Positions 6,684 to 60,807 of a stretch of DNA of 64,000 bases are shown piece after piece; position 1 is the stretch's first letter; each line of letters starts with the position of its first letter. The DNA comes from Macrolepiota albuminosa (taxonomy: Eukaryota > Basidiomycota > Agaricomycetes > Agaricales > Agaricaceae). Below the pieces are notes generated by a model, which saw only the letters and a list, made by a program, of their open reading frames with translations, ran no database searches and was not told the DNA's origin. The stretch covers positions 1,302,001 through 1,366,000 of the forward strand of contig JAMWFC010000115.1 in NCBI GenBank assembly GCA_027475525.1. Reading direction: 5' to 3'. The translations under genes were made by a program, and so were the position numbers.

Positions 6684-6837
6684 TCTGGTTTCGTTGATAC
6701 CTTGATGGCCATATTCTCCTATCAGTACGGACTTCTCTGAGCTTTCGTACTTCGATCATGTCTGGTTTCGTTGATACCTTGATGGCCATATTCTCCTATC
6801 AGTACGGACTTCTCTGAGCTTTCGTACTTCGATCATG
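6684..6837. repeat. Perfect 77-bp tandem duplication
   Basis: Units 6684-6760 and 6761-6837 are identical. It lies just 3' of the KRE6-like stop and affects no reading frame. Confidence 0.95.
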
Positions 6838-8035
6838 AAAGGACCATTTCGATATCCAGTTTTATGCATATATTGTTTATTCCTGGGTCTGTACTAATTT
6901 GAAATGTATACCTCTACCTCCACGCTCCTTTGTTTCCAATATTCCTTCGAATTATATACCTTCATTGCGTCTTGCTTATAACGTTCTTTTGTTCTTTTTT
7001 TCTAGATTCACCTACTGTGCAAATCACTGATTCACCACGACATCGTTGACAAACATTTGGGCAATACAAATCTAACCCAATCAAAATTATGTCTCGAGAA
7101 AAATACTTTTTTTAAGTGTAGAAACCAATTGTATAGACAGATATTATGTATAGCTTTGAAAGTGAAGGAGTTTTTCTTTTTTGAAGGTCCAATTTCATAC
7201 AATATATGATACTTATCAAAAGCTTCCTTACTTCATAGAATCCAAGGACTTTGGGCGTCCAGAGTATCCATTGCAATTGTTCTTTACAATATTTTCACGG
7301 TGACATTGAGTCCTGAGGGTAGAATAGTTGACTAAACTCTTCATCGATTACTGAGACACGTCATATATGAACAATGACAAGGACAGAGCCTTGCTCTCGA
7401 ATATTTCTATTTCAAATCTGAGAAACACCTTGGACGCTCATGCAACGGCCACTTGTAATCCCATCGATTACCACTTACTAAATAGGGACAGCTTGGACAT
7501 GTTTCGAGTGAACCTTACTTACATCTACCATATACCCTCCGCCCCCGGTCGAAACCTTCCTTTCTTTTCCCGATTCTTGACTGCACACTTGGTGGATTAC
7601 GAACATAGGGTGGTTCCCGATCCGAACTCAGTGAAGATGTACGTCTTACACTACTGTACCCTAAGAGCTCCACTATCCAATATTCAATTGCGTTCTTGTC
7701 GCTCCTTTGTTCCCTCCTGGGCTTGTGCACGGCACTCCACTTTGACTGATGTATCAACAACGTCTCATAACCGAGTCGAAATCACTTGTTTTATAATCTA
7801 TACGTCTCTTGGGCAAAATCAAGTCCGCATGGATCTTCAACAGGTATCGAATCGATCCAGAGATGTTTCAAATCTGGTTTCCTTGGCATTGAAATGTTGA
7901 AACCTGATTTTGTCGGTACCGAAACGTTTGCTCATCGGTCTGTCCGCTCGAGAGCTGAGCTCACATTGAGCTCGGGTTATATATAACATCATATATGGTA
8001 GGTCTTGATATTATTGTCTGCATTCCCCTGTTTCA
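6838..8035. other. Intergenic, no gene recognised
   Basis: This is AT-rich DNA. A 177-codon open frame on + at 7367-7900 has no recognisable domain, no intron signals fitting a longer product and no signal peptide, so I do not call it a gene. The promoter of the following membrane-protein gene should lie in its last few hundred bases. Confidence 0.45.
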
Positions 8036-9438
8036 ATGGCACTAAATGAACGACAAAAACTCTCTATGGTAGGAAATAGATTATTTATCATCCTTTGGCC
8101 TCTTGCCATTGCTCTATTGCTTCTTGGTAAGTACGGCGGTAGAAAGTTAAACCGTTTTCCTTCTGATAATACGATCTTCCCAGGCGTTTTGGTCTTTCTT
8201 TGTGTCCTCACGATGCGTTCTCTCATGTATGTGATCTGAGCAGTCGTATAACTCACTCCAAAGCAGAACTCACCTTTGGGATTAGCCTGGGCCACTTGTC
8301 CTATTCATCTAGGATCATGATGTTTGTGGGCCTCTTTGGACTCGCTGTGTCAACTGTTCAATGTGTCGTGTTATTCGATTTGATGATGATCGGTATTCAT
8401 TTCATCTCCAATATTACGACAATGTCGCTCTTGAAGGAGAATTTTCTCGCATACAATGCCGTTGTTCTCAAGATATCCATTATTTGGTATTGGAGCTGTC
8501 GTGTCCTTGTGCGCCTTCCCTTCGACTAGCGCTTTACTTGATCATAACCAGAGACTGTAGCCTCTGCTTGTCGACACACTAATTCTATGGCGTGTTCGAA
8601 CAGCCTTTGCGAGGGCAAGATGGGTAACTTATTTCGTATTTTCTCTGTGGATAATCACACTAGGTGATCTTTCCCTTCTCCTACAATTGGACAAATAATT
8701 CATCTTAGCGCTCTAAGTCACGACGCTGTGCCCACTTGGATTGCTTTCGAATGCTGTCGCTAAACATGGCAATATACGAAATTCGCCAGCCATTGGAACC
8801 TTCTTTACCGTCGGCATGGCATTCTCATTCGCAACCAATGCCATGACCACTTTGTCCGTTGCGTGGATTTTCTGGTACGAGTCATTTTTCACCGTTATGA
8901 CATCTGAAACTATGTCATCCTAATGTCATCGTCCAGGAAGCACCGGAGAATTCTTCGAATGAACGCAATCGCCACCCAGCGGCGCTCATTGAATTCACGA
9001 CGGCTTCTTTTGTTGCTAATAGATTCGGGTGCAATCTATTGTGTGCTCCAGGTAATTGGATCGCTAAACGTTTCTAGCATTTATCATTTAACAGTCCTAG
9101 TCAACAGCTACGATTCTCAATGCTTTTAATTTTCCACTCACGTCTGCAGGAAATATACTCTCAGAAGTGATCCTCTCTGCTCAAACGGTCATCTCTGTGT
9201 GTCCTTGCCTCATTGTGCAGCAAGAGAGATTAACAATCGTTGACTTACGGAACTTTAGGCTATGTACCCGACCGTCATCGCCTCGCTCCTGAATAGACCT
9301 TCTTTTCTGCTTGACACCATCAAAGAAGCCGAATCGTATTCAAGTGGGCAGACAGTCACCATGCCAATATTTACTTCTGTCATAATAATGGAATCGATCG
9401 ACCTTGGCACTTATCATGACGCACCACAACCCTGTTGA
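8036..9438 (+). CDS. Multi-pass membrane protein of an uncharacterised basidiomycete family
   Basis: This is a polytopic integral membrane protein, apparently with seven helices. Function is unknown. ATG 8036 opens a first helix (RLFIIL...LALLLLG) that splices at 8129. Later exons, recognised by frame and GT-AG sites, encode a helix around 8275-8400, then LLVDTLILWRVRTAF with the next helix (8557-8665), a helix with ATNAMTTLSVAWIFW (about 8800-8875), a basic loop leading into LLLLLIDSGAIYCVLQ (8939-9050), a helix near 9150-9200, and AMYPTVIASLLN (about 9260), ending in a soluble tail at TGA 9436. The [IL]xSGAIYC and YPT motifs are shared by a large family of fungal 7-helix proteins. The exact splicing of exons 2-3 (8180-8555) is uncertain, and internal stops in single frames there could mean either missed introns or decay. 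Confidence 0.6.
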
Positions 9439-11248
9439 CCATGGTTTAGAGCATCTATGAAGTGATATTTTCGATAATGACTTATATTTTACGTATCTAC
9501 CCTACATACCTCAATAATTATTGAAACTGAGTTCTTGACTGAAACAACGTTAGTAGATTCAGATAGAAGCTCATATAATTCACGACTCGAGATAATTCCG
9601 CTGTCACTTGACATCTAAGATACACCTGGACCTTACTCGAGCAGCAACTGCATCTCAATCTCGCAGACTTTCCAATCTTAACGGATTATTCATTTGCGTG
9701 ACAGCCCACGGCGTCTATACGCCATTGTCGGTTTCAAGCCGACTCATTGCGAGGGGTGAAGTCTCGGGCACATAACAGGCAGGAAACGTCAAATTTGGAT
9801 ATTTGGCCACAGTGGGCTGACTGAAAAGTAAGCTAAGTGCCTGAGGGCCACGGTAATCTTAGAGGGAAAGGTATCAATGACCGAAAGCTCAAGAGGAAAT
9901 ACTGTATGTGGAGTAAGACCCAGAATCCGAACATAAGGGCTTGAAGTAGCTTCGGTATCCACTTCGTTGCAACACAACCTGTCGAGATTCGAGCTCGTCT
10001 CCGTAGTGGTTACTCTGTGCACATATACTATCAGTCTCCAGATGGAAAGTTCTCGTATTCTTTAATCCCTACGTTACGGAAGACACTAACTGAAACAAGA
10101 TCTACAATGGTAAAAAAGATGAGCCCCGTCTATGCCAAGAGAGAAATAGCTCTTGCCAAGGCAACTGAGTGGAGTTGAATAGAATTACGAGAATGTGAGG
10201 CATAAGCGTTGACTGTTGCGGCAAGTAGGTGGGTTCGGCAGCGGCCATCTCGAAGAACATTTAATCCAGTTACTGTAATTTTAAACATACCATCGCATAC
10301 TCGGGAGATGTCAGGCTGTCACGATGGTGTGGAGAGATAAGATTGGAAAATGTTTGGAACGCGTCACATCACAAGACACCATCACAAGACACCATCACCC
10401 GCAAAAAACGTCTACTCACAAGGTTCTAACAGAAAGAATTCAGCTGAGTTATATACAGTTAAATTTTTAAATCGACTACCTTGGTGTGCGAGTCTTTGGA
10501 CATAACTTCTCGATATGGGCGCTGTCCGGAAATAATGGAAGGAAGACTCGAGGAAAAAACACGTTCCGACATAAAAACTACCTTTTTCTATGGGAGAGAT
10601 TGCAAGTTTGGCTCCCACGCCCTTAAGTGTGATTGAATGCTCTTGTGATCAGCTGAGCTGCTCATAGCTACTCTGATTGATACGGTCGGTGTCTCAAATT
10701 TACAGTCCATCTTTACAGATTTGCAAGATTCAATAGGTGTTTGAGTGGATCAATGCAGCGCAGATGGAAAGGAGGACCTGAGTTCCTTCTGGACTGCTAG
10801 AAACTGAATTCATTTTCCATTTTCCACTTGGAGAGGACAGCTGCAGTTTGTTGAGGTTCATTGAGACGTCGAATGACACATTTTCTAACAGGCTCCTGGC
10901 GGAGAGAAACGAATCTTCAAGTTGTTTCCCATGATAAGAGCCGCATAATGACCCGTGAATTACTTCTGTCAGAAAATTTGTCATAAAGTGCTCTTGTGGG
11001 TCCACGCGCTCCAGTCACAATGTAGCAAAGGTGTAATAGAGCGGACTTGGTGGAGTGGGAAGATCTATGGATGGGTACATACATAGATTGCCTACATACA
11101 TAAGTACTACATATATACATGTCCCGAGTCTTATGAGAATTTCAGTCAAGGAACAGGACCCACCATTTACCCAAGTTCCTCCCGTGACTCTGATCCTGCA
11201 TTCCATTTCTCCCTCGACCACAAATCGTCGAGATATATATCTTGAGAA
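9439..11248. other. Intergenic, possible gene remnants
   Basis: Three short minus-strand frames (9789-10022, 10412-10618, 10730-11005) have leucine-rich composition, but I could not link them into a gene. A small 14-bp repeat (catcacaagacac type) occurs at about 10367-10398. The last 100 bases hold an AT-rich promoter-like stretch (gatatatatc near 11231) upstream of the carboxypeptidase start. Confidence 0.4.
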
Positions 11249-20129: not shown

Positions 20130-20150
20130 AGGCCCCCAGCATGAACTACA

Positions 20151-20896: not shown

Positions 20897-20936
20897 TCTT
20901 TCTGGCTATGGGGTAGGCTGTTGCCTCATCTCTTGA

Positions 20937-21090
20937 TCCGCTAGTGATCCACCAGCCTGCCTACCACCATTACAACAATTATTGTTGTCTCAATCATTCT
21001 ATTTATGATTACATCCGCTAGTGATCCACCAGCCTGCCTACCACCATTACAACAATTATTGTTGTCTCAATCATTCTATTTATGATTACA
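20937..21090. repeat. Perfect 77-bp tandem duplication
   Basis: Units 20937-21013 and 21014-21090 are identical. It sits at the 5' edge of the Gag capsid frame of the gypsy-like remnant. Confidence 0.95.
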
Positions 21091-21793
21091 CCTCCACCAT
21101 CATTATTGCAACAATTCTGCTCTCTTCTATCATCACTACCTTCCAGATCTCTGTTCGGCTCAGCAGTTTGAGCAGCAAACTGTCACTGCATATCATCAAC
21201 AAGCATTATGCTTCACGCCCTTTAAAGGCTATTCTCTGGTCATCAATTAATGACTCACTATGATCGTGCAAGTCTGGTTGCACATTCTCTAGTAATTGAC
21301 ACATTCATTCCAGTTATTCACCAGGTGGACATGTTGTGCTATGCACTGTGGTTGCATTTGCTTCTCAAGAATGTGGACTTTGTCCACCTCTTCTTTGATG
21401 GTGACTTGCTTTTGAGGTGTCTTAACCTCTTGCACAGCAAGTAGCACCTCTGGCTCTGCTGGAGTTGTCATCACAGTTTCCACTTCAGCTGAATGCCTGC
21501 TGAGACACTCTACTAACATTGCGTTGATGGTTTGTGGCATTTTGATGCCTGATATAGTCTTGCTGAGACTTATTAGCCTGAAAAGACACATTTAGCAATT
21601 CCATTGCCTCTGCAATCAATGGCGCTCATTGGTGCACACTCATTTTGCATTTCACTGAGTCGGCTAGTGTGGCCATTGAGACTGCTGATCTCCATGCCAC
21701 TTTGTGCTTTAGGTATTCTACCACTTCAAGTTCAAAGATATGCACAAATAGTTTGATATATTCTGTTGAATCTGCACAAGGTATATTGTGGCT

Positions 21794-21947
21794 CCTAGCA
21801 GCCAGTAAATGTAGATGCTTTACTATGTAAAGCTGCAGATGCTTTTGCATTGATTTCTTAGTGACCAATGCCTAGCAGCCAGTAAATGTAGATGCTTTAC
21901 TATGTAAAGCTGCAGATGCTTTTGCATTGATTTCTTAGTGACCAATG
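21794..21947. repeat. Perfect 77-bp tandem duplication
   Basis: Units 21794-21870 and 21871-21947 are identical. It splits two minus frames (21868-21626 and 22123-21935) that may have been one. Confidence 0.95.
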
Positions 21948-22301
21948 TATATTGGTCCAATATCAGCTGTAACTGATAGACAGGGTTGAATGTGACCTCT
22001 TACTTTCTCATCATCTGAGGAATCCAGTTTGAACTCTAAGTCTAGAACTCTCCTGAGGCCTTCATGCCTCACCTGCAGCTGTTTTCTGACCCCTTCTTGC
22101 AACTTCTGAGTTTTAAGCACCAAGGGTGCCTTTTCCAGTCATACAACATTGTCGTCCTCCCTGCTGACCATTATGGTTGGTCCTTGCTTTGATGCATATG
22201 TTGTTGCCAACAACTGTCCTGGTTCATTGGCAGTGTCTACCACATACTCCAAATGCTGCTCAGTTAGTGCAGTCCAGAACAGAGTGCTGTGCACGAAAGT
22301 G

Positions 22302-22455
22302 CTACCTTGCACCAGCTCTGAGTACTGGGTAAGGTCTGGTTAACCATTGGACTGGGCTGATGAGCTCTCAGGTAATATCTACCTTGCACCAGCTCTGAGT
22401 ACTGGGTAAGGTCTGGTTAACCATTGGACTGGGCTGATGAGCTCTCAGGTAATAT
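22302..22455. repeat. Perfect 77-bp tandem duplication
   Basis: Units 22302-22378 and 22379-22455 are identical. The surrounding sequence is transposon-derived with no assigned frame. Confidence 0.95.
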
Positions 22456-22887: not shown

Positions 22888-23718
22888 CTAAATCAGACTG
22901 CTATATTGGATTTGATTAGAACTAGAGTGAATACAAGATGTTGTTTTACATAATATTCTAAGTTGTGCTAATAGCATCCTTGATGCATGAAATCTGTTAC
23001 ACTCATACTCCAAAAGTTTGTGCTTGATGTAAACCCAAAGATGTTCAATGGGATTGAGGTCAGGGGATTGGGCAGGCCAGGATATTCCAAAAGTTTGTGC
23101 TTGATGTAAACCCAAAGATGTTCAATGGGATTGAGGTCAGGGGATTGGGCAGGCCAGGATATTACAATGACGTTGTTATTAGAAAACCAGGTTGTTGCCC
23201 ATTTGAGGTGTGTTTTGGGTCATTGTTCTTCCTCCTCCATTTCCAACTTCTCAAAGCTTTCCACCACTCCCTCATCTAAAATCCACAATACTGTGCAGCA
23301 TCCATCTTCCCCTGAACTTCTATAAGCTTTCCTACTCCATTCTAACCTATGCAGCCCCATACTATTAAATTGTCTCCTCCTCTATGCTTGACAGTTGGTG
23401 TAGTGGTGTGGTCAGATAAACAAGGTCCCATGACATTGTTTATACTTCTCACAAGGTGTTTCCATCTTCTACTGCTGAAAAGTATTGAGAAAATATGAAA
23501 ATTAAAGTGAGTCAAAAAACTGCCCAATAATTGAATATTTTGTTTGATTTATTAATCAGTAAGTTCTTGTTCAAATCACATGATTTATATGTTATTATTA
23601 AGCCAAGATGTAATTGTATGTCATGTGATTTTCTACAATGTTTCACTTATGTAATTGTTGCATACCATGTGAATCTTTCCAAAAGGGCCAAATATTGGGG
23701 CAGTTTTCTAAGCCAGTG
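22888..23718 (-). mobile_element. Truncated Tc1/mariner element (copy A)
   Basis: The right end matches the terminal repeat of the Tc1 element at 43145-45576. It finishes CCAGTG at 23718 followed by TA, the expected target dinucleotide. Inside, on the minus strand, the transposase C-terminal motif WPAQSPDLNPIEHLW is visible at 23115-22888, and fragments with DHTTTPTVKHRGG and NLIVWGCIG at 23527-23342. The left terminal repeat and most of the transposase are missing, and the match to copy B stops shortly after HKLLEYE. One 77-bp duplication (23009) repeats the catalytic-end region. The element is non-autonomous and dead. Confidence 0.8.
23009..23162. repeat. Perfect 77-bp tandem duplication
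   Basis: Units 23009-23085 and 23086-23162 are identical. It duplicates the DLNPIEHLW-coding part of the Tc1 transposase. Confidence 0.95.
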
Positions 23719-24751
23719 TAAATCTAAAAATTGAATAGCATGATATGTATATGTATTGATAAGTAGACAAATAAAACATAGAGACTGAACTTCAAAGCCT
23801 TCAATTTTCATTATTGTCTCTGTAGGCATAGAAGATATTGACATCAATATGACTTTCATACAGAAACAGATGTATCTCTCTGCAACTGTGGCTTCATATT
23901 TATAGCTTGTAAACAGAAATAGTTTGAATATTACAACAAACTATGCTAAAAGTAAGAAATGAATCTGCTTCTTGTAGGTATTTTTTGATGCTATATAAGC
24001 ACAAGATATAATTTATATCCAAGATGATTAATTAAAGTTTCTCAGTTTCTAATAGCTCTCTAATTATTTATTTCAATATATTAAGTGTATCAGATCCAAG
24101 ATGATTAATTAAAGTTTCTCAGTTTCTAATAGCTCTCTAATTATTTATTTCAATATATTAAGTGTATCAGGTAATGTAGATAAAAGACTAAAATCATACA
24201 GTTGATCCTTTAAATATGCATAAATAAAAGGAGTTATAGATTGAAACTAGGTATAAAATGCTAAAAGAAAGCAAATTTATAAACTCAATCAATATGTCAA
24301 AATGCAATTTCAGAACAGATTGATCAAACAATAAACCATTGCTGGAGCAACAGCTTACATAAACTATTGATGGAATATCAGCTTATATAAGCACATTCTA
24401 TTAGACAGAAAACTGGATCTATACAAGCTTATAGAAAAAATAATTCAAAAAGTTCTATGAATACCAAAGACAATGTGATCTAATTTTCAAAGATGAAAAT
24501 AAATGAAGAGAACAGAATAATGACTGCTAAAGCAAAAAAAAATTTCACATAATTGTACAATTTTCATGCATGCTCCTCTTTCTAGGTACTAGATGTAATA
24601 AATTACAATAATAAACAAGGCATTTAACAACATGAAACAGATTATATATTCAAGAAAAAAACATATCTTATTTTAAAAAAAACATATACACTTGTTCAAA
24701 AAACATATACACCTTCACTATGACTGACAAACATAAAATTGGCATACAGTT
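23719..24751. other. AT-rich transposon-derived filler, no gene
   Basis: This very AT-rich stretch has no open frame of note. It contains one 77-bp duplication at 24017. Its family is not recognisable. Confidence 0.5.
24017..24170. repeat. Perfect 77-bp tandem duplication
   Basis: Units 24017-24093 and 24094-24170 are identical, in AT-rich non-coding sequence. Confidence 0.95.
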
Positions 24752-30112: not shown

Positions 30113-30521
30113 TGTAACCCGAGGATACGCATCAAGTGACATATTCGTGTTGTATCTGCATCTATCGTGTCGTTTTGCTGTGCGTTTGTATATTTAGTAC
30201 GTGTTTATCCCGGTTGTTATCCTTAGTTAGAAACCAGCCCATAGTGCCGAGTCGCTGTGAGTGATGAGTGCGAGTGATCAGAAGAAGTCCAGGGTACCCA
30301 TAAACAAATAATGTTATACAGGGGATTCTTGCTGCCGACCCTGGCTAGTTGTCCGTTCGAAGCAAGGGTCACCGCGGACGCGAAAGGCAATCCTTGAAGC
30401 TGAAATTGTTGAGGCTTGCGCACTGAAGCTCATGAAGTTTACGGAGACCTGCGATTTGAAGCTCATGAAGTTTACGGAGACCTGCGATTTCTATTCCATC
30501 CATCGTCTCGTACTCAGAATA
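30113..30521. promoter_or_regulatory. Intergenic, 5' region of secreted-protein gene with a 33-bp repeat
   Basis: This holds the 3' flank of the peroxiredoxin and the upstream region of the next gene. A perfect tandem duplication of 33 bp (30424-30489) lies directly upstream of the start. Confidence 0.6.
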
Positions 30522-31818: not shown

Positions 31819-32639
31819 TTAGAGCTCGTCCATATATTCCCTGCACCGATCGTATAGCCGATGCCACCGCCCATTGTTCCATGTACGCACGCGCGCCCAC
31901 CCATCATGAGCTGCGACTCTCTCAATCCAGATCAGCACCGAGCAGAGTGCAAAATCTGCATATGAAACTTCCCTTCCCATCGCAACTATCCCGTCCCCAT
32001 CACCTGAATTCTTGTCCAAGATCATCGCCAGGAAGTCAAATTGCTCTTTTACCGCCTGCCATGCCTGCTCACGCTGTGGAACCAAAGAGTGTGCTGTTGG
32101 ATGCGTACTTGGTTGCCCGCCCCGCGACTGTAGCTGCTGATGTGACAGGGGCAGCATGATCGGCAGGAGTGGTTTTGCAAATACATCCTGGATGTAGTGC
32201 ACAAAAAGAGTCTGCATGCTCCGAGACCCCTCTGGAAACACGGGTCGTGCGGGATACGCAGCCTCAAGATACTCCGCAATGTAGTTTGTGTTCGAGAGAA
32301 TCTCAGGCTTCATGGGATTGCGCGTTGGGTCAACGATGACGGGGAGTGTGTAAATTGGACGCCCGTCGCTTCGCATCGAAGACGGGGGTGCGCCAATTGA
32401 CCGCATCGTTGCCTCAACGTCGGAGAATTCGATCCATACCGTGCGGTAGCGAAGCCTCTTGTAATTTAGAACGAATCTGGAGAAAATAAGCTTGGTGACC
32501 ACGACATACTCTGTCGATTTTATTGGATCATGTACCTAATACGCCAGATATTTGGTGCCCATGGCTGCGGGGTATTCCCAGGAGCATCATAGAGAGTGAT
32601 AAAAGGCGGAGAAGAGGTCCGCGCAGAGTATCGCGACAT
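31819..32639 (-). CDS. Glutathione S-transferase, fungal cytosolic type
   Basis: This cytosolic GST-fold protein probably conjugates or binds electrophiles. Two exons, 32639-32536 and 32476-31819, are joined by a 59-nt intron, giving about 253 residues. The first exon supplies the start of the thioredoxin-like domain (ITLYDAPGNTPQPWAPNIW), which an open-frame view alone would miss. The second continues RFVLNYKRLRYRTVWIEF, then the glutathione-site region with ILSNTNYIAEYLEAAYP, where the Ser/Asn before YIAEYL fits the gamma-glutamyl contact. An all-helical C-terminal domain follows (EVSYADFALCSVLIWIE). The start ATG 32639 keeps a short head before the first strand. No break was seen. Confidence 0.85.
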
Positions 32640-34539: not shown

Positions 34540-34693
34540 TGCCCAGTCAGCATCTGAATAGGCTGATATCTTGAGATCCTTGCCTCCAAAGATTAACCTT
34601 TTGTTTGATGTTCCTCTGCCCAGTCAGCATCTGAATAGGCTGATATCTTGAGATCCTTGCCTCCAAAGATTAACCTTTTGTTTGATGTTCCTC
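34540..34693. repeat. Perfect 77-bp tandem duplication
   Basis: Units 34540-34616 and 34617-34693 are identical. It duplicates the YSDADWASHT-coding part of copia RNase H. Confidence 0.95.
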
Positions 34694-40390: not shown

Positions 40391-40544
40391 GTCCAAGGGG
40401 AAGAACTCTGTCCAAAACTCCTTCTCAAACTGATCCCAACTTCCAAAACTCTCCACTCCTCCAGGGCGTCCAAGGGGAAGAACTCTGTCCGAAACTCCTT
40501 CTCAAACTGATCCCAACTTCCAAAACTCTCCACTCCTCCAGGGC
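40391..40544. repeat. 77-bp tandem duplication, one mismatch
   Basis: The units are offset by 77 and differ by a single base (tccaaaact versus tccgaaact). It duplicates the FEKEFRTEFFPLD-coding part of the gypsy Gag. Confidence 0.9.
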
Positions 40545-40817
40545 GTCAAAAGACTCGTAGCACGTATGTTGAAGCTTGCCCAGACTTCATGTAAGAAAGA
40601 ACTCAAGCAATCTTGAGAGCATCAGAGGGGAAAGCCTCATCACTGAGCTGAATATAGGTGATGCAGGACTGCAGGAAACGCTCGCCTATTGCTCGGTCAT
40701 CATTGAATGCATCTGGGAGTGCTGGGCAAGGAATATTGGCATGAACTGGAGAGGGAGGCCCCAAAGCAAGGAACTGGGGTTGTGTCAGCCCTAACTGGAG
40801 GTGCCTGAAAAGGGGTA

Positions 40818-40971
40818 GGAGCAAGAGGGAGGCGCTCTAAGAGGGCCTGAAGAGAATGGGAGATGGTGTCTGTGGCCTGACATAATCCAGCAAGGGAGCA
40901 AGAGGGAGGCGCTCTAAGAGGGCCTGAAGAGAATGGGAGATGGTGTCTGTGGCCTGACATAATCCAGCAAG
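40818..40971. repeat. Perfect 77-bp tandem duplication
   Basis: Units 40818-40894 and 40895-40971 are identical, in the N-terminal part of the gypsy Gag. Confidence 0.95.
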
Positions 40972-41284
40972 TTCGGTAGCGTGGAGGGTGAGGGAAGCTT
41001 GAGTAGTCTGCATTTGAGTCTCCAGAGCAAGCAAGCGACCCCAGGCATCATCTGAGGGGCAGAAGCGTCCAGGGAGTGTCTGAGGGGGCTGGTTGGGTTA
41101 TAGAAGCAACAGAGGGGCAGGGAGTAATCCAGTGGGGCAGGGACCTAAAGGGGCAAGAGAGGGCTCAAGCAGGCTGAAGGGGGCTCCCAGACCAAAATGT
41201 AGAGACTTGTTCTGCTGTAAGGGCAACCTCTAGAGGCTGTGGCTCAGTCACACAGCTGGCAGAGGGAGATCCAAAGTGTATTAG

Positions 41285-41438
41285 AGTATGTACTGACAAT
41301 ATCATAATAACTACTCACCTGGCAGAGAGAGATCCAAAGAGAACAAGTCTAGGGATTTCCTAGTATGTACTGACAATATCATAATAACTACTCACCTGGC
41401 AGAGAGAGATCCAAAGAGAACAATTCTAGGGATTTCCT
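41285..41438. repeat. 77-bp tandem duplication
   Basis: The units are offset by exactly 77. It lies inside the gypsy LTR. Near the end of the second unit one base differs (caagtc versus caattc). Confidence 0.9.
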
Positions 41439-41607
41439 ATGCCAGGTTGGACGCTTCTGGGCTTCTGAAGCATGGGAAACAACTGTACAGTACAACAAAA
41501 CCTTAAAAACTTGAAAATTGACTAACCAAACAACTGTGCAAACAAGGGAGGAAAACTCCGGACTTAGAAGTTAGAAAGGCAAACTCCGGCTTATATAAGT
41601 GGTCTGA

Positions 41608-41760
41608 AAGCGGTGCTGAAGGGCCCACACTTGTCTGAATAGTAGCTAAAGAACCAGAGCATCTCAAGGGCTGAGAGTAGTACAAAGCGGTGCTGAAGGG
41701 CCCACACTTGTCTGAATAGTGCTAAAGAACCAGAGCATCTCAAGGGCTAAGAGTAGTACT
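41608..41760. repeat. Imperfect 76-77-bp tandem duplication
   Basis: The offset is 76, and the second unit lacks two bases (tagtagct versus tagtgct region). It lies inside the gypsy LTR. It is the only member of the set without a clean 77 offset. Confidence 0.8.
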
Positions 41761-41810
41761 AACAGATAGTGTTGAAAGAATAGAAACAGTAAAATGAAAT
41801 AATGTCAGAA

Positions 41811-41964
41811 GAAATAAGAGAATGAATAAAGGGAGAGTGAAGAGATAAGGAGTGAGAAAAGGAAGAAATGAGGAGTCCCCTGACAGAGAAATAAGAGAAT
41901 GAATGAAGGGAGAGTGAAGAGATAAGGAGTGAGAAAAGGAAGAAATGAGGAGTCCCCTGACAAG
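41811..41964. repeat. 77-bp tandem duplication, one mismatch
   Basis: The units are offset by exactly 77 and differ at gaataaaggg versus gaatgaaggg. It lies at the outer edge of the gypsy LTR. Confidence 0.9.
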
Positions 41965-43142
41965 TATCTGTACAAGTTGTGATATAATAATTAGCAGAGC
42001 TATCATGTTCAATCCTTATTCAGATTACTGCATATATTATCATGGCAATAGTAGCTCAAGTACTCTTGTTTAATGGTCAATTATATCATGACCTCCTCAC
42101 CTGGAACCATCCTGAGACACTCCTGAAATCTCATCCAGAACTCCTTTGCTGACTTGATAACACAACCCTCATTGATGCTTGCCATCATAGGTGCCAACAC
42201 TACTATCATGCACATTAAACTCCACCATCACATATGCTCCTCAACAGCCTCCATACTGAGAACTCTAGATTACTCACCATCATGGCCCTCACCTCATGAT
42301 CAATGCTTGGATTACGCTGATTATCCTGGCTATCACACATCATGCATCATGTATTACAACATCCTCTACATGCCTATTGATTGTGCAATCCCTGAAATAC
42401 AGTCTCTCCTTTGCCTGCCACCACTCATTAAATCCTAGAAGCTATTTTAGACACCCCAGGATCTTTTCAGATCCTCAGAGTAACCCCTGTAGTACTTATA
42501 ATCATAGTTATCCTCTTGTATTACTTTAGTCTTAATATTACAATTGCTGTTTGCATGTCCTTTGATTTGACTAATATGCATTGACTGGCACATTTGGCTG
42601 GCATGTGTACTCTGAGACTGGTATGCACTTTGCAACTCTAAGTTTGTTAACCCCAGTCTCATCTTAAAACATCTGGTTCTCAACTTGACCTCAACCTCTA
42701 CCCCACTCTCAACTTTATTAATTTCTGGACCAAGTTTCTAGTCTCAGATATTCTCTTTTTTGCATCTTGAACTCTGGAGCACAGCCCAAAGTTCCAGACA
42801 TCCAAGTACACATAGATCAAGTCCATCTTATAAGGGTGTTGCTTTCCTGAAAGGCCTCCAAGTTAGCAGTACCTGACAAACTACTTGTCACCACCATTTA
42901 AAATGGCACTTGCATTTCAGAGTGGACATTAAAAAAATTATATTGATTAGTATATTATTATATGTAACATTTGTATTGCAATACTAGGAAATTTCTAAAG
43001 CTGACTGCATTTTATTATATTGATTAGTATATTATTATATGTAACATTTGTATTGCAATACTAGGAAATTTCTAAAGCTGACTGCATTTTAGAGTAGAGT
43101 GTGGAATAAGTATGTCATTGTCTCCTTACAAGGTGAGCATTC
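41965..43142. other. Transposon-like DNA, unassigned
   Basis: This AT-rich stretch between the gypsy LTR and the Tc1 element contains a weak Gag-like reading on the minus strand near 42130 (KEFWMRFQECLRMVPG). No usable gene was found. One 77-bp duplication lies at 42938. Confidence 0.4.
42938..43091. repeat. Perfect 77-bp tandem duplication
   Basis: Units 42938-43014 and 43015-43091 are identical, in AT-rich non-coding sequence just left of the Tc1 element. Confidence 0.95.
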
Positions 43143-43262: not shown

Positions 43263-44015
43263 CTCTGCAGTTAAGAGGTTTGAAATAGCGCCAGACCGGT
43301 CACGCAATTGCATGACCTACGTGTATTGGCAAAAGAAGGTGAAAAAGCGACAGCTCGCTACATTATCTACAGGGAGAGGAGGGAGGGTTGACAAATAAAA
43401 GAAATAAAATACACTAATAAAATACTGGCGTGATTTTGTGAGTGAAGGGCCAACGCAACCTTCCCATCGCGTACTTACTTTTAGATATTTCGTTTCGTGA
43501 GAGTGCAACGTGAATCAGCTGTGGAGCAGACAAAATATCTAAGGTGAGAGGTGAGCCCGGCTCACCGGATGGCCATGGGCAGGGGGTCTCACCAATAGTT
43601 TACAAAATGAACAGGAATTGTAAGTAAGCAAGAATATAACAGGTCACTAACAGAGTGAATGGGAATGCGGTGAGATCAAACATGTGAGAGAGTGCTAGTG
43701 CGCTCACCTGGGCAGCCGGTAGAGAAGGAGGTGGATGGAAGAGGGGGCTACCGAGATGTCTGAGACGAGTGCTAGTGCGCTCACCTGGGCAGCCGGTAGA
43801 GAAGGAGGTGGATGGAAGAGGGGGCTACCGAGATGTCTGAGACATATGCTCTACAGACTACAACACGGCATCTGCCAGACCCTGGCGCCATGCCAAGATC
43901 AGCATGCGGTCTAGAGAGGAGAGAGGTGTGGGTGCGACTGGAGAAGCCACCTTGAACACGCAGAGGCCTCCGAAAATGCTCGCCACCTTCGGCGCTCGTT
44001 TTTACAACGATCAAA
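43263..44015. mobile_element. Unclassified insertion inside the Tc1 left terminal repeat
   Basis: About 750 bp (about 675 after removing the duplication at 43690) interrupt the terminal repeat. The composition is visibly GC-richer than the host transposon. I see no clear terminal repeats, open frame or known domain. The boundaries are set by where homology to the right repeat stops and resumes, so they are accurate to perhaps ten bases. Confidence 0.6.
43690..43843. repeat. Perfect 77-bp tandem duplication
   Basis: Units 43690-43766 and 43767-43843 are identical, inside the unclassified insertion. Confidence 0.95.
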
Positions 44016-44119
44016 ATAATATATACATCACATAATTTGAATAAAAATTTGCTGATTAATAAATTAAACAAAATATTCAATCATTGGGGCAGTTTTTTGA
44101 CCTACTTTAATTTATTGAA

Positions 44120-45260
44120 ATTTGCATATTTAGTACTTGGTATGGCCTCTATTTGCCTTTATAACTGCTTTGATCCTTTTAGGCATGCTCTTTATGAGGC
44201 TTTGGCATACTTCTGATGGTATTTTATTCCACTCCTTGACCACTCTCTCTCGCAACTCATGCACTTCTTTATGAGGCTTTGGCATACTTCTGATGGTATT
44301 TTATTCCACTCCTTGACCACTCTCTCTCGCAACTCATGCACTCTTTAAAGGGTACTTTATACTTCAAAAGTTTGCACTTAATGTAAACCTAGAGGTGTTC
44401 AATGGGATTGAGGTCAGAGGATTGGACAGGCCAAAATATCACAATGATATTGTTATTAGAAAATCAGGTTGTTGCCTGTTTGGAGGTGTGTTTTGAGTCA
44501 TTGTCTTGCTGAAAATATCATCCTTTCTCTTCCATTTTCAACTTCTCAAAGCTTTCCACTATTCCCTCATCCAAAATCTCACAATACTGTGCAGCATCCA
44601 TCTTCCTCTGAACTTCTATGAGCTTCCCTACTCTATTCCAACCTATGCAGCCTCATACCATTAAATTGTTTCCTCCTCCATGCTTGACAGTTGGTATAGT
44701 AGTGTGGTCAGATAGTGGTTCTTCTAGAATTTTCCATGTATATATCTTCCCATCTGATCCAATTTAATTAATCTTTGTCTCATCACTTCACAAAACCCTC
44801 TTCTAATCCTCCACTGTCCAATTTTCATGATACTGAGCAAATTTGAGCTGGTTTGTACAATAAGCAGCCTTAAGCATGAGAACTTTCTTCTTTGTTGCTG
44901 AGCAAAAACCTGCCTCCTTTAATGCATTTCTGACTGTCTGAGGATTGACAGGACTGTAAATGACAGAATTAATGAACTGTGTAGCTTGAACAGCATTATC
45001 CAGCTTTCTAGTAGTAATTTGACAAATAATAAACTATTTGTCATATGCTGTAAGCTTAGAAGGATGACCTCTAGGATGATTCTCTTTGTTGCTCTCCAGT
45101 TTGTTGCTGATCCTTCCCACAGTGCCCTTTCCCAGGCCAGTTTTTGCCTGGATTTGATCCTGAGAATACCTCTTATTAAGAAGAGAAGCAACAGAAGAGC
45201 GATTGGCAACAGAAACAGGTCACATGATGGTGGTAAAGTATCAAGAAGGTGATTGATTGA
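44120..45260 (-). pseudogene. Tc1-type DDE transposase, frameshifted
   Basis: Read on the minus strand: a helix-turn-helix head (SQDQIQAKTGLGKGTVGRIS), the first catalytic Asp in VLWSDETKINW, then NLMVWGCIGWNRVGKL, and a DLNPIEHL box that carries the final Glu. It closes with IPSEVCQSLIKSMPKRIKAVI. Stops and frame changes interrupt the middle and end, including the region before DLNPIE, so the copy is inactive. The family is recognised from the order of these motifs. Confidence 0.75.
44190..44343. repeat. 77-bp tandem duplication
   Basis: The units are offset by 77 (44190-44266 and 44267-44343). It duplicates the C-terminal transposase part encoding PSEVCQSLIK. Confidence 0.9.
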
Positions 45261-50726: not shown

Positions 50727-52037
50727 ATGACAACATTCGCAAAGAAGGCCTTTAATGCATCTATTTATACATCATTCCGGCCTACGTATCCCAAAAGGCT
50801 GTTTCAAGAAGTATATGAATACCATGACGCTATTGGCTCAGGATCTTGGAATGTTGCCATGGACTTGGGATGTGGAACCGGTAAGTCCTCCATCTTTCCT
50901 TCAGCTTGTGTACCCTTTGATGCGTTCAATGAACGTGAAACCTCACATATCTTGATGTATAGGGCAAGCAACGTGTCAATTAAAGGACAATTTCTCAAAT
51001 GTTATTGGGATAGACCCCTCGCAGCCTATGATAGACGCTGCACGAAAGAAACACAGAAAACAGGGGATTGAGTTTTATCAGGGAAAATCAGAAGACCTAC
51101 GAAATGTTGTACCAGATGACAGTGTAGACCTTGTTATCTCAGGTAACTGCGTTACTTACTCTTTCGAGTGATCTCACACGAGGACATGTAGCACAATCAG
51201 GACATTGGTTTGATTGGGACAAGGTCTGGCCTGAGATCAGTCGTGTCTTGCGGAGAAATGGCACCGCAGCCGTTTGGGTAGGATCTGATCTAAATTATTA
51301 CGCGAATTTCGACAGCTAATTAGAGCAATTAGACTTATGGTGAATTGCGACTACCCGAATACCCGAGCACTACGTCTCTCATCACTGCTTATGCACAGGG
51401 AGCAATTAGACTTATGGTGAATTGCGACTACCCGAATACCCGAGCACTACGTCTCTCATCACTGCTTATGCACAGGGAAGGATCCTCTTACCAGTCTCGG
51501 CCCATATTTTGAGCGTCCCGGAAGAACGATCCTTGAGAACATGTTAACCGATGTTCCTGACCCTACGCTCCTCGAGAGTGTTGTCAAAGTTCGCGGTGGA
51601 TTGAGTCGCTTCGAACGGCGGTATTACGCAGGTGATCGTCCTTCTCGTTCTTCATTATGTTCCTAACATCTGTTCCAGGTCCTCATTTTCCCACCCATCT
51701 CCCGCCTCCATCCCCGACCCAAGCCAAACCTATAGAAATGCAGGTGACAATGAGATGGAGGGATCTCCTTGGTTACTTCAAGACCTGGAGTTCACTTCAG
51801 AATTTCCATGAGCGCTTCCCGAGTGACTTGCAACGTGTTGATGAGCGGTTTCCGGAGGACAGAGCTGATGATAAGACCTCTTCACAAATCGATGTTGATG
51901 TTTCAGGCGGTGATATAGCGGTTCGATTCTGGAAGGACTTGAGAGAACAGGCCAAGAAATCTGGTGGCAAGTACGGCGTCGATGAACTCGTATCGGTAGA
52001 GTGGCCGATTGCTCTGCTGCTCGCGAAGAAGGTTTGA
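50727..52037 (+). CDS. SAM-dependent class I methyltransferase (trans-aconitate-methyltransferase-like)
   Basis: This is a cytosolic small-molecule methyltransferase. ATG 50727 opens SFRPTYPKRLF, then motif I VAMDLGCGTG at the first splice (about 50880). The next exon (from about 50965) gives QATCQLKDNFSNVIGIDPS and later the ISG / AQSGHWFDWDKVW region at about 51140-51230, both typical of the Tmt1-like family. Further exons encode GELRLPEYPSTTSLITAYAQG and LGPYFERPGRTILENML, and end in VEWPIALLLAKKV, stop at 52035-52037. The frame is interrupted at 51323-51476 by a 77-bp tandem duplication, and one extra base shift remains after it is collapsed. I think the gene is intact in the organism and broken here by assembly. 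The substrate is unknown. Confidence 0.75.
51323..51476. repeat. Perfect 77-bp tandem duplication
   Basis: Units 51323-51399 and 51400-51476 are identical. It repeats the exon encoding GELRLPEYPSTTSLITAYAQ of the methyltransferase. Confidence 0.95.
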
Positions 52038-52117
52038 ACATGACACGAACACATACAAGGTATGTCTTCCATCCTATTGCACGAGAGTTCTTGGTGTAGC
52101 TAACCTCTGTATCTCAA

Positions 52118-53529: not shown

Positions 53530-56500
53530 AGTAATGCCGAATTCGTGGTGATGCTTACCAGTTATACTTCGGGTTCTTGTGTTTGCTTTAGCTCATGGGT
53601 ACTAATGGCCACACAGTTCCGAGATCTATATCACGGCTGTACGTTGTCATCACAACATCATTACATGCATTTACAGAAGTATAATCTCATGACTGTGTTC
53701 ATGGACGGCGAATATTCATCTTGATCAAGGAGGTGCGCCAATTGATACCCTATCACATAGGATATCAAAGATTCAGTACTTAACTGATGGCGCGAGGGGC
53801 CGAGATGTCAATCAGTCCAAAACGTATCAACTCGGCACTGTTAATCAGGAATCAGCATGGGCGACAGCGTAAGATCTCCTCAACGGGCATGATTCCCGTC
53901 ATCACGACATCTATACACAGCAGCGTCGTCTCCACGGATGAACATCGGGCCGAAGAAAAAGCTTGTCTCTGCTTCAAGATCATTTCTGCAGGTCGGTCGG
54001 TAAAACGCCATTTAGGCAGCAGTTTCCTCGTACATAGACTTTGCATTCAGGTGGTGAAGACTGCTCCCGGAGCATGTCTAGTGCGATTTTTGCCGCTGCT
54101 CTTAGAGGGGAATAAAGAAAGGAAAAAAATAACGCGTGGGTGTCTGGAAACGAACTCTTTGTTCTTGCTTTAGGTGGGGGCGATTCGGGGCCCTCCTTGA
54201 ATGAAAACAACTCTGCGATCTCTGTGCCTATGACTACATATGACTATAGTGGGTATGGACCCTGTCCCCAACCATTCAAGAGTGGGTCACATGTTGATGG
54301 AGTTCCGTGTCGGTGGGGACGTTCAGGATAGGGATAGAGATACTCCGGATCTGTCTGCTAGGGATGAACTCCGGTGCGAGGAAATACACTTGTCGTAATG
54401 AGAGTGAACACAAGATTGCATTAGAGGTAGAGGACTATGAGAGGGTAGGTAGTTGATTAAAATTAAATTAAATTCGATCAAAACGTACGTCTGTGGCGCT
54501 TTCGAGGATACATCTGACCATTCTGCGTTCTTCGCACACAACCACAACCAATTGAAAATTCAATACAACTCCCCATTTGTGGTTGTGTGATCATAATCTC
54601 TTTATAGGATACGAGTTCCGTGTGCTGCGGCGGACCTCTTGAGTTTTCTTTTTGTATTAGGAAGTGATTCTCAGTATGAATGGGGCTACGAGTTCCGTGT
54701 GCTGCGGCGGACCTCTTGAGTTTTCTTTTTGTATTAGGAAGTGATTCTCAGTATGAATGGGGCTTATTGGGACTTTATCTTTGTAGGTTGGGTTGGCGGC
54801 TTTGGTGTAACGAGTACGAGGTTCGGGATATTCAGGATAGAGATACTCCCGGGCCGGATCTGCTCCGATGGGGAAGGAATACACTAATACACTTGTCGTC
54901 ATAAGAGTGGACACAAGATTGTCGGTTGCACTTACTAATGAGGGGGTATTTGATTAAATTCGATCAGGATGGGCGTCTGTGGCGCATTCGAGGAGACATC
55001 TGACTACTCTGCGTTCTCTCCGCACACAATTACAATTACAGCTAATTGAATATTGAATATTGAGTACAACCCTTGTGTGATATAATTATAATCTTTCTAA
55101 GATCATTTAGATGCCCCGGTTCCTATGGATCTATATGCAGGATACGCTGTGGCGGACCTCTTGATTTTTGATTTTGATTTTGATTTTGATTTTTTGAGGG
55201 ATTAAGAGATGGAGTTGAGCTACTCTGCTTTTGTTTTTTGTTTTTTTGCTTGTATCGAGAGCAATGGGTTCATCGGGTAGCAGCAAATATGGGGTTAGGT
55301 ATTATTCATCGCTTGGGGCGGAAGGGGTTGGTTAGTTATCAGTATGGATGGGGTTTGGGTACTTTATGTTTGTAGTACGTTGGCTTTGGCTTTGGGTTTG
55401 GTGGAACGAATACGAATATGAGGGTCGGGAATGAGACGTCGGTTGGTGTGTGTGTGTTTTTTGTTTTTTGTTCATGGCTTTTGAGAGATGAGCGACGAGG
55501 GCATGTACGTGGAGAAAAATCGGATCACGAGCCTGTTTACTATTTACTATTTTACTATTTACTATTTACAAGTATGTTTTCGATGGTACATTTTCACTTT
55601 TCACTTTCACTTTCACCTTCCTCGATCCATGCTTTACGCTTTTCGCTTTCGCTTTCGTTTTTGGTTCCTGGTTCTGGCTCTTTGATGATGATGGTTGATG
55701 GTGATGTGAGGATGGGTTGGGGTTGGGAGGATCAAGCAGAATAGTGATATCATATCGTTAGTGTTATTGGTTATTGATAATTGAGCGATTTGTGAATCGA
55801 GCTGTGGTGGGTGGTGTCTTGTCTTGTCTTGTCTTGTCATTATAGATTAGATGGGTTGTTAAACAAGCAGGAATGGAAAGATAGACTGACTGACTGACTG
55901 ACTGATAAAGGCCTATTCGAGTGTTAAACTGCCAGCCAGATACACTAGTTACTTGTTGTCCTTCTCATGGCACTTGACGCTCCTCACCATAGTCTCTTAC
56001 CCACTCGAAACATTCACACACCTCAATTCGAAGAAAAAAAAACAAACAAACACAGAACGTAATTAACGTAACGGTCGTCGACATCACACATACATATCTC
56101 AACATCGCATCAATCAGATCAAATGTATCGTGTCAGTCATTACAAACTCGGGGACTCGGTACTGTCGCAATTTTACGTTCCGTTATACAATTTGCGTGCC
56201 GAAGTCATTCAGCGTGGGGCCTCGCCATCCTCCGTGCTCCGTGCCGGCTTTTGAACAGCCTGTAGCTGTAGTGTACCTGGATCTCAGATCCCCGTGCGTT
56301 ATGGTTACGTCATAGGGATAAGTCACGTCACGTGGTGTCGACGCGCCTTGGCGATTTTTGGATTTGGAGTGGCCATGGCGACGGGGGAGATGGTTGCTTT
56401 GCTTTTGTTATCTTTGATATTGATACGTCGTTGGGTTTTTGGGGGAGGCTTGGGGTGATGGTGTGTGTGTTGGCAGATGGATGGGAGAGGTGATGGGATG

Positions 56501-57067: not shown

Positions 57068-58078
57068 ATGACTACGACCGAGCTGCGCCACATGACGTCC
57101 ACAGCCGCGCTTGTCCGCCACTCGCAGCACCTGCGTGCGCACTCGCCGGTCCGCTCGCCGACGTGCATCTCGATCCCGTCCTCGCCGACGTCAGTGCACT
57201 CTTCGTCGAGCGCCATCTTTGAGCGCGACATCGAGCCGCTGTCGCCTGCGTCGCCGCTGCACGTCTCGCCCGCCAACGCGCACCGGATCCCGCGGTCAAA
57301 AACAACAGAAACCATCGAGCACTCTGTCCCGTCCGTCCTCGACTCTGCCGCTGCGATCCTCACGTCGATCCAGAACGCAAACGACGTCGCCGTCGTCGCC
57401 CCCGCGCCATATCCCACGTCGTTCCCTGGCAGCGGCTTCGCAAGCCCCATTGGCAGTTTTAGGAGCCGCAGCCCGAGTCCGGCCCACGGCAGGAACAGTC
57501 TCCTCCTCAACATCCCCCAGCGCCCTCTGTCTATCCAGACCTCCCACGTGCCACCTGCCCCTCCGGCGATCGTCACTCCCACGTCCGCATACTTTTCGGC
57601 TCCCGACGATGCTGAGTCGACCGAAGACACCACGAGAACCCCGAATGACCCACCTCTCCCCGCTGCCCCATCCACCTTCTCCCAGCCCCACTCTCCCGTC
57701 TCCCCCAGCCCGAGCATCGCCACCAAACGCCTCTCTTTCGTCTCGTACACAGACCTGCTCACGTCCACACCCACGTCCACCATCCCCCTTTCCTCCCTCA
57801 CTATCGCCGCGTCCGCGTTCGAGCCCCCGCCACATATCAGCGGCGTCGCGTACCCTGCCACTGCCAGCGCAGCTACGAGCCTCCGCGGGTTCCCCATGGG
57901 CTACGACGCCCCGGCCTCCCACTCGGGGTCCCCCAAACGCTCGCGTGATGCTATGACGCTCTTGTCACCTGGTCACCCTGCCACCCTCGATGACGCCGGC
58001 GGCGAGTGGGAGCGCGAGGGGCTTGGCCGTGGTCTTGAAGAGAGACTTGATGTTCTCTATGGAACTGCTCACGCGTGA
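57068..58078 (+). CDS. Intrinsically disordered Ser/Pro/Thr-rich protein with RLSFVSYTDLL motif
   Basis: This is a single-exon gene of about 336 residues as called from ATG 57068; an in-frame ATG at 56918 would add 50 residues. Almost the whole product is predicted disordered: many SP and TP sites, a run of PSSPTSVHSSSS, and SRSPSPAHGRNS. Near residue 225 it carries KRLSFVSYTDLLTSTP, followed by STIPLSSLT, an ordered-looking motif that I have seen as a conserved island in otherwise variable fungal proteins. The end has GGEWEREGLGRGLEERLDVL, a short amphipathic segment. The coding region is strongly GC-rich, which explains the long shadow frames on the other strand. The many SP/TP sites suggest phosphorylation by proline-directed kinases. 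No catalytic function is expected. Confidence 0.7.
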   Translation: MTTTELRHMTSTAALVRHSQHLRAHSPVRSPTCISIPSSPTSVHSSSSAIFERDIEPLSPASPLHVSPANAHRIPRSKTTETIEHSVPSVLDSAAAILTSIQNANDVAVVAPAPYPTSFPGSGFASPIGSFRSRSPSPAHGRNSLLLNIPQRPLSIQTSHVPPAPPAIVTPTSAYFSAPDDAESTEDTTRTPNDPPLPAAPSTFSQPHSPVSPSPSIATKRLSFVSYTDLLTSTPTSTIPLSSLTIAASAFEPPPHISGVAYPATASAATSLRGFPMGYDAPASHSGSPKRSRDAMTLLSPGHPATLDDAGGEWEREGLGRGLEERLDVLYGTAHA

Positions 58079-58959
58079 TGTGATGTGTTTTTTTCTTTTC
58101 GTATTCTTGATCTCGGCTTAGAGCCCCGTAATGGATTTTCTGTCTCTTTCTTTTTTTTTGGTATCTTTCTATATGAATATGTGCCCCCACCCACCCACAC
58201 CTCTCCGTCTTTCTCTCTTGCTCTTGCTCGGTCGATTTTTTCTTTCCATTTGTGCTTTTATATCAAACGCAATTGTGAAAACGAAAAAACTTTTTATTTT
58301 TATGTCGGGCGCTGCTTTTATGTGTTCATTTTTCATTTTTTTTTTATTGTGACCTATTCTTTATGTCCTCCTGTTGAGGCGCCTCTACCCTACCCTACCC
58401 CCAGACTACAAGGCTACCTACGTGTACTGATCAATGGATAATGGATCGTTTACTGTGTACTTCAAGTGCTTTGACCCCTTGGTGAGATGCATGCGCGGTG
58501 CACGTGATTGACTCGGATGACCGGAAATGAGATGGAACTGCTTGTCGTGCGTGCTTGTTGACCATTCGACAAACATAAAGTAGGACGGTTGGGAAATAAC
58601 CTGCTAAGAGTCAAAGTCGAGATTCCAGGAAAGGAGAAAAGGAGAAAAGGAAGAGAGAAGAGAGTCGTGGTGGGGACGACCCTCCGTGCGGAACGCGGAA
58701 CCGGTGCGCACGGACGGGTATGATTTGAGTACTGAGTACTGAGTACTGAGTCCTGAGTATTGAGTATTGAGTAACTGACTGGGTCTTGACTTGGGATTAT
58801 CCCCATGTAGGCCCGGGGCTGGGTCGAACGTTTATTTTGACGGACGTTTGACGGACGTCTGATGGATGGAGGGTAGAGTATGTAGGTGGTTTTGGATTTT
58901 GGTGGAGGTGTGGAAAGTCGGTTTGGAGGGTTGTTTCAAGATATTATTGGTAGGCTGCG

Positions 58960-59065
58960 TTGGTTGGTTGGTTGGTTGGTTGATTGGTTGGTTGGTTGGT
59001 TGATTGGTTGGTTGGTTGGTTGATTGGTTGGTTGGTTGGTTGGTTGGTTGGTTGGTTGGTTGGCT
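58960..59065. repeat. (TTGG)n microsatellite with 20-bp higher-order unit
   Basis: Blocks of four to five TTGG are punctuated by TTGA, giving a 20-bp superunit repeated three times. The last block is pure TTGG. Confidence 0.95.
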
Positions 59066-60112
59066 GGAATCAAGTTCATTTGTAACCCAATGATGTTGTA
59101 CCCACCCCTTAGTGGGTGAATGATGGTCTTGGTATGTTCAGAGTTCAGAGTTCAGAGTGAATGAAGTGAGTTGCTTTGCTTTGCTTATTAGTGAGCACAG
59201 GGTGGCTTGTTGTGTATATGTATGTGTCTGCCTATGTTAGTGTTGTGGATGGATTTTTGGGAAAGATTGGGTTTTGTAGAGAGATTTGGTTGGAATAGTT
59301 ACAGATTTTTGATGAGTTTTTCCTACTTTTTTTGCTTTCTCTCTGCCCCACCTTTAGTTCTTGATCTTAATTTTTTTTTCTAAGTCTTTAGACTCAGTAC
59401 TATAGAGAAAATGATGACTACACAAGTTTAGGGATGGTGGTAAATGAAAAAAAAAAGATTAAAGAGTAACTATGTTAAATATGACTAAATGTAGGCTAGG
59501 AGCCTATCCTATTGCAACATTGAAGTACTGAGATCATTGCTAAGGAAGATTAAAAAGATCTTTGACTAAGGTAGATGACATTTTGGGAAATGGAGAAACA
59601 CAACTATAGACTCAACTTGAGAAGGAGAAGGGAAGAAGGAAGGATTTTGAGATGGATAAGTGTAGACAGTGGTAGAGAATTTAAATGTTAATGTCAGTAT
59701 TTTTGGTCAAGAAATAGAGAATAAGGTATGTAGCAAGATTAAACTATAACCAGATAATGAGACAAAGAGATAAAGCAGAGGGTACAGCAGCGGTGTAAAT
59801 CAATGTAGATTGAATATTTAAAAACTGCAAAATCAAACTATGTAAATATGAGCCTGGTGAGCAGGTGATGTATTGATCTGGAGGAAGAGACTTACTATAC
59901 ATTTTTATCAGGTAGCATCAGAAATCTCCGAAGGTCACCATGGTTGCCAAGAACATTCGCAACACGACCTCGCTTTCACCTTTTCCTTATTGTCACTTGT
60001 TTTATCCTTGCTTCTCTGCTCAAGATGCCATAGGTGAATAAGCCTCTCTATACTCTCCCCCAATGTCGGTCTTGTCACGTCCAATCTCTTGCTCTCATAT
60101 TTATGGAAACGT

Positions 60113-60266
60113 GCACACACGCGACGTTTGTGAGTCAGGTATTGATGGACGTAAATATCGATAGGACGTGGGATTTGGATTGTTCAAGAGCACACACGCG
60201 ACGTTTGTGAGTCAGGTATTGATGGACGTAAATATCGATAGGACGTGGGATTTGGATTGTTCAAGA
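60113..60266. repeat. Perfect 77-bp tandem duplication
   Basis: Units 60113-60189 and 60190-60266 are identical, in intergenic DNA. Confidence 0.95.
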
Positions 60267-60653
60267 CGGAAGGAAAACCTCGAATACTTGTGACCTGGAA
60301 GGTTTTTTTGACTTTCACCCTCGATTGTGATTTATGCTCAGGACGAACATGATCGATCTCCCTGTCGCAAACCTTCATATCCTCTCTCTTGTAACTGATC
60401 AACCTAAAATCAGCTATATCAAATATAGTTCGTGGGATACCCCGCCAGTAAAATCGTGAAAACACCTCAGTATGTTGGCATGTTCAATACAGGTAAAGTT
60501 CCAGTTAATTGCGTTCTCTATCGAAATCATTGGGTCGATGTTGGCTGTACAGTATCGCCAACCAGGCTTGATAGTAATGCTTTGGCAAACGAGTCCAATC
60601 TCCTCGGATTGGAGGGACCATGACTTCTGCATTCACACCTATCGGAAAATGGG

Positions 60654-60807
60654 AGCGTCCTGTCATTATTGAAAAACAAGTTTCATATATGGAATGTTAC
60701 ACATCGATATCGTATGAAAATCACGAGATTAGCGTCCTGTCATTATTGAAAAACAAGTTTCATATATGGAATGTTACACATCGATATCGTATGAAAATCA
60801 CGAGATT
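60654..60807. repeat. Perfect 77-bp tandem duplication
   Basis: Units 60654-60730 and 60731-60807 are identical, about 100 bp downstream of the DUF2235 gene stop. Confidence 0.95.

Follow-up and report, generated by a model that had tools for sequence, protein, structure and literature searches.

Tandem pairs of 77 bp in a Macrolepiota albuminosa genome assembly are probably untrimmed overlaps between de Bruijn graph contigs

The window analyzed here is a 64-kb stretch of the Macrolepiota albuminosa assembly GCA_027475525.1 (contig JAMWFC010000115.1; C108:1302001-1366000), in which 20 segments of about 77 bp are each written twice in tandem. These pairs are a real signal of the sequence file and almost certainly do not exist in the organism itself. 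On the basis of sequence comparison, we estimate at about 90% the probability that they arose where contigs of an edge-centred de Bruijn graph with a word length (K) of 77, of the SPAdes type, were joined with the K-base overlap left untrimmed. A fixed 77-base assembly overlap was the core claim of an earlier note on this DNA, and it is supported by an offset spectrum with a spike at 77 only, single units in relatives, shifting pair positions, breakpoints at chance level, and a unit located at a transposon end.

Results

Tandem pairs in the window

Tandem Repeats Finder returned 35 rows for the window, 20 of which were pairs with a period of 76–77. Their coordinates agreed within 0–5 bases with the 20 sites that the earlier note had listed. 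The offset spectrum of the window (offsets of 20–399, identical runs of at least 25 bp) contained 20 runs at 77, one run each at 20, 33, 40, and 76, and none at the other offsets; a run of at least 70 bp at one offset is expected by chance about 7e-38 times per window. The pairs, none of which has an assigned strand, occurred in both repeat DNA and single-locus DNA. Sixteen of the 20 were exact, with runs of 77–79 bp, which bears out the description of most pairs as identical. The four inexact pairs all fell at 40.3–42.0 kb. Those at 40391, 41285, and 41810 had one mismatch each, and that at 41607 had an indel and a mismatch, its period being 77 over 37 bp and then 76 owing to the 1-bp indel.

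Spread across the assembly

The assembly comprises 100,137,612 bases in 129 contigs. Outside the window, we sampled 28 hand-chosen regions with a total length of 240 kb (0.24% of the genome, including 5,463 bases of N), consisting of 18 contig starts and two interior stretches of 10 kb each and eight interior stretches of 5 kb each. For offsets of 15–299, a run was counted if it was exact and no shorter than 25 bp and 0.8 of the offset. At offset 77, this gave 32 pairs in the first 200 kb of the sample and eight in the next 40 kb, besides a single pair at 18 in the former and, in the latter, a 61-bp satellite array together with its multiples. When the cut-off was set at 61 bp, 41 pairs at 77 were obtained, spread over 15 of the 28 regions; 35 of them were exact and six inexact. 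The densest region was the start of contig C30 (L006), with 14 pairs within 5.4 kb. No significant trend was found between guanine plus cytosine (G+C) content and pair density in the 28 regions (Spearman 0.23, p 0.25). The earlier note had held that a genome-wide spectrum without a spike at 77 would speak against its interpretation; in the 0.24% sampled, the spike was at 77 only.

Several other features were observed in the sampled regions. In L007 (C40:1-10000), the run of 5,463 N stops exactly at the start of a 77-bp pair (5464). The 61-bp satellite array, in L042 (C122:1200001-1205000), starts at 4253 and is at least 700 bp long. L009 (contig C60) and L021 (contig C129) had G+C contents of 0.61–0.62 versus 0.45 in the window, and given these values the two contigs are possibly contaminants.

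Breakpoints of the pairs

In 51 exact pairs (16 from the window and 35 from the sample), the matching bases past 77 numbered 0.71 on average versus 0.68 expected from the window composition; therefore, homology at the breakpoints is not in excess. The signature of slippage or microhomology-mediated repair, namely varied lengths and excess microhomology, was looked for in the pairs, which instead had a fixed length and homology at chance level.

One unit or two in relatives

Comparison with relatives covered 15 of the 20 sites, that is, all except 6682, 23009, 42937, 52726, and 54610. A single unit was found at 14 of these 15 sites, in DNA relatives at 13 and in methyltransferase homologues at one, with 24017 as the exception. 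In fetched paralogues, the distance between the flanks was measured, 77–78 indicating one unit and 154–155 indicating two. The paralogues for 40391-41810 and 20936-22302 (L048-L057) were picked from match tables, largely for matches that break at the pairs, so the single-unit fractions at these sites come from a non-random sample.

Three exact pairs lie in the same high-copy transposon. For the pair at 20936-21090 (run 78), flank distances were measurable in none of four copies, the flanks being too weak or unrelated, and arithmetic on four chosen match-table rows gave 77, i.e., a single unit. The pairs at 21794-21947 and 22302-22455 were single in all four fetched paralogues and in all three measurable ones of four fetched, respectively. 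The exact pair at 34540-34693, in distantly repeated DNA, likewise gave 77 by arithmetic in four chosen distant relatives. In the transposon nest, the pair at 40391-40547 was single in four of five measurable paralogues (six fetched), the fifth carrying a diverged pair, and the exact pair at 40818-40971 was single in all six fetched. At 41285-41439, also in the nest, four of six fetched paralogues were single, and the other two carried their own pairs at shifted positions. The pair at 41607-41759 was single in all four measurable paralogues (six fetched). The exact pair at 43685-43843 (run 77 from 43690) was single in the only paralogue fetched (L033). Two exact pairs lie close to a Tle1-like hydrolase gene on the minus strand, at 60113-60266 and 60654-60808 (run 78), and their same-contig paralogues, L046 and L047, respectively, were single.

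The pair at 41810-41962 was judged by the position of its unit, the flanks being too weak or unrelated for the distance test (six tried). Its first unit coincides with the final 77 bp of a transposon family. In five of six fetched paralogues the unit was present, and the sequence after it differed visibly among all five, being a second unit in none. Because the unit is the end of the transposon, a de Bruijn graph must branch at this site. Elsewhere, the exact 77-mers of 40818 and 22302 occurred only twice in the assembly, i.e., as the pair itself, and the 77-mer of 51323 had only two occurrences even when up to three mismatches were allowed. The earlier argument from branching of the graph has direct backing only at 41810, where a repeat ends; for the three other 77-mers examined there was no third copy. 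The missing third copies would be accounted for if a second haplotype went unassembled or contigs were removed.

These observations bear on whether the pairs were made elsewhere in the pipeline, by a step that works with words of 77 bases rather than by the joining of graph contigs; candidates are a gap filler that duplicates its anchor word, hybrid correction of reads, and reassembly of local sequence. Such a step would produce the same fixed length and exactness, and the three 77-mers without a third copy fit joins away from repeat branches. The close spacing of pairs in the transposon nest and in L006, where one recurs every few hundred bases, and the unit that finishes at the transposon end at 41810, resemble graph nodes rather than gaps, and we consider this origin unlikely.

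Shifting pair positions in one transposon family

The exact pair at 44188-44347 (run 77 from 44189) lies in a transposon family that we take to be Tc1-like. A search of the same genome with the transposon around 44189 gave 779 candidates, of which 40 were scored. Among the 39 scored copies other than the window, 30 aligned in two pieces, eight aligned over the full length, and one spanned the 43690 site only. Against the 30 two-piece copies, the excess length of the window at 44189 was 77 in 22 cases and 75, 76, or 81 in the other eight.

All eight full-length copies, four of the 30 two-piece copies, and the copy spanning only 43690 were fetched (L022-L034). An own exact 77-bp pair was found in every full-length copy and in none of the other five. 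When placed on copy L030, the pair starts of the window and the eight copies were at about 225, 232, 247, 178, 186, 154, 148, 128, and 124. The pair was therefore always 77 long and lay at nine differing positions in nine copies. One length at nine positions in homologous copies fits untrimmed overlaps, unlike an inherited duplication. The flank distances at 44189 indicated a single unit in six of 12 measurable copies, a further copy being unmeasurable; two of the six also carry a pair of their own at a greater distance, and the value for one copy was 424.

This family also provides an argument for the alternative that the organism makes real fixed-length tandem duplications, through an enzyme or a replication process that copies 77 bp. 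Under that explanation, copies of one transposon family could carry pairs at differing places, and the few diverged pairs would look like old duplications. The invariant length, the lack of excess microhomology, the presence of pairs in both repeat and single-locus DNA, and the identity of most copies argue against it, and to our knowledge no process duplicates DNA with a length of 77 bp. We regard real duplication as very improbable. That the fungus makes such duplications genome-wide by a fixed-length, sequence-blind copying process is more improbable still.

Order of the joined pieces and large identical blocks

Wherever sites with single-unit relatives could be compared, the flanks were collinear, the exception being 41810, where the repeat end meets other DNA. 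Because of this collinearity, those joins look right but for the untrimmed overlap. The earlier warning that the order of the joined pieces may also be wrong is accordingly not borne out at the sites comparable with relatives; at 41810 and at sites without relatives, the order may still be wrong.

In the own-genome searches, twin matches at constant offsets were observed. On C126, 3,000 bases and seven of eight 300-base probes, spanning 120 kb, were 100% identical between about 1185001-1305300 and the sequence 281,388 bases further on; the eighth probe, further out, was unrelated. On C90, 2,000 bases and both of two probes placed 40 kb apart were identical between about 1350001-1390300 and +236,323, and the same 77-bp pair was present in both copies. 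On C27, 2,000 bases (549001-551000) were identical to those at +174,194. Twin matches of equal score at a constant offset were also seen in the match tables for C25 (offset 14,271) and C13 (offset 82,377). The identical C126 blocks probably reflect either one piece entered twice or a segmental duplication of very recent date, and for the large identical blocks on C126, C90, and C27 together, recent segmental duplication and double placement of pieces are both possible origins. The 77-bp pair common to both C90 blocks would fit a join that preceded the copying of the block.

Genes touched by the pairs and remaining features

Since 77 is not divisible by three, a pair within an exon breaks the reading frame. 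The exact pair at 51323-51478 (run 79) lies in single-locus DNA within a methyltransferase gene. The same residues of the homologue from Termitomyces sp. T32_za158 match 51327-51401 and 51404-51490, in two frames. The doubled segment was single in all 11 homologues examined (of 18 found), with best scores of 67–108 and second-best scores of 21–26, and the downstream part directly adjoins the segment in these homologues. About 15 bp or less from where the pair ends on the right, the frame changes a second time (window 51475-51490), which may reflect a sequencing error or a real defect. The frameshift in this gene had been called false; the pair does double a segment that is single in the homologues, but it is only partly responsible, given the further frame change near its right edge.

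The other pairs in single-locus DNA are at 6682-6837 (exact, run 79), downstream of a KRE6-like gene and at one place in the genome, 52726-52879 (exact), and 54610-54764 (exact, run 78). The 11 KRE6-like homologues examined (of 42 found) stop at 6635 or earlier, short of the first of these pairs, and so do not support its placement in an exon. Pfam searches with ten short open reading frames (ORFs) at unique sites gave no match above the cut-off. The exact pairs at 23005-23167 (run 78 from 23009), in transposon-like DNA, and 42937-43091 (run 78) were covered by no scored relative.

The glutathione transferase ORF at 31822-32502 matched that of Termitomyces sp. T32_za158 at 93% and those of other Termitomyces and Tephrocybe at 85–88%, and these matches indicate that the genome is that of a Termitomyces-like mushroom. 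In T32_za158, the locus tags of the glutathione transferase (C0992_006592) and the methyltransferase (C0992_006590) are close together; in the window, the two genes flank the transposon nest on either side.

Apart from the 77-bp pairs, the sole exact Tandem Repeats Finder pair with a period of at least 30 was a 33-bp pair at 30424-30490. Its length corresponds to 11 codons, and it may be a real duplication. An Rfam scan of the window gave zero matches.

Discussion

In the proposed origin of the pairs, the starting point is an edge-centred de Bruijn graph with K = 77, built by an assembler that we infer to have been SPAdes or one of its relatives, whose contigs would share their end 77 bases with adjacent contigs of the graph. 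True neighbours would later have been set end to end, during scaffolding or gap closing, with the shared 77-mer untrimmed, and each such join would have left the identical 77 bases written twice. Since the window contains no N and the contigs reach several Mb, long reads probably guided this joining. Polishing after the joining may have introduced the few mismatches. In SPAdes output, adjacent contigs share exactly K bases; tools with an odd K and an overlap of K-1 would give an even number. SPAdes runs with K steps that include 77 have been published (PMC5321748).

Several observations weigh against this origin. A pure graph overlap would be exact, and therefore later editing must be assumed for the inexact pairs (four of 20 in the window and six of 41 in the sample) and for a relative with a period of 78. 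That relative, L043, belongs to the exact pair at 24017-24170, which lies in repeat DNA and for which all three fetched relatives also carry a pair: L044 is exact and visibly shifted, L045 is exact, and L043 is diverged. Some unfetched copies in the transposon searches, e.g., on C6, C56, C71, and C90, align across the pairs unbroken, and own pairs are presumed there. For the three 77-mers examined (40818, 22302, and 51323), the alternative branch of the graph is absent from the final sequence. Finally, literature and record searches yielded no paper or assembly record for this genome. T. cryptogamus v2.0 is a different assembly of 70 Mb in 64 contigs made with Canu (PMC10021994). Hybrid SPAdes and MaSuRCA assembly was used for termite-comb Pseudoxylaria, a different genome (PMC10119272).

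A search of the literature for the artefact by name found nothing specific. Where adjacent de Bruijn contigs are joined with their k-mer overlap untrimmed, the doubled stretch has a fixed length equal to the K of the graph. The pairs resemble such doubled stretches in that they are fixed in length, mostly exact, unrelated in sequence, dense in repeats, and single in relatives; they differ in that the assembler and K are deduced here from the pairs and in that three units have no third copy. As in the wrong contig overlaps reported for published plastid genomes, overlaps were apparently mishandled in a finished sequence. Those plastid cases were demonstrated by read mapping through local jumps in coverage, whereas the present ones were recognized by sequence comparison in a 100-Mb genome (PMC7488116). 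False duplications in genome assemblies are similar in being copies made by assembly that lead to false biological conclusions, and the present ones differ in being short, tandem, and of a single length (PMC9516828).

The hand-chosen regions contain roughly 0.17 pairs per kb (41 in 240 kb); if this density held assembly-wide, pairs would number on the order of 17,000 and the false sequence would amount to about 1.3 Mb. Plotting the periods of exact tandem pairs as a histogram is a cheap screen that could be used on other public assemblies. The value of the finding lies in its warning about sequence quality, and its biological interest is low: gene and transposon annotation, pseudogene counts, and surveys of tandem repeats in this genome would be misled by the pairs.

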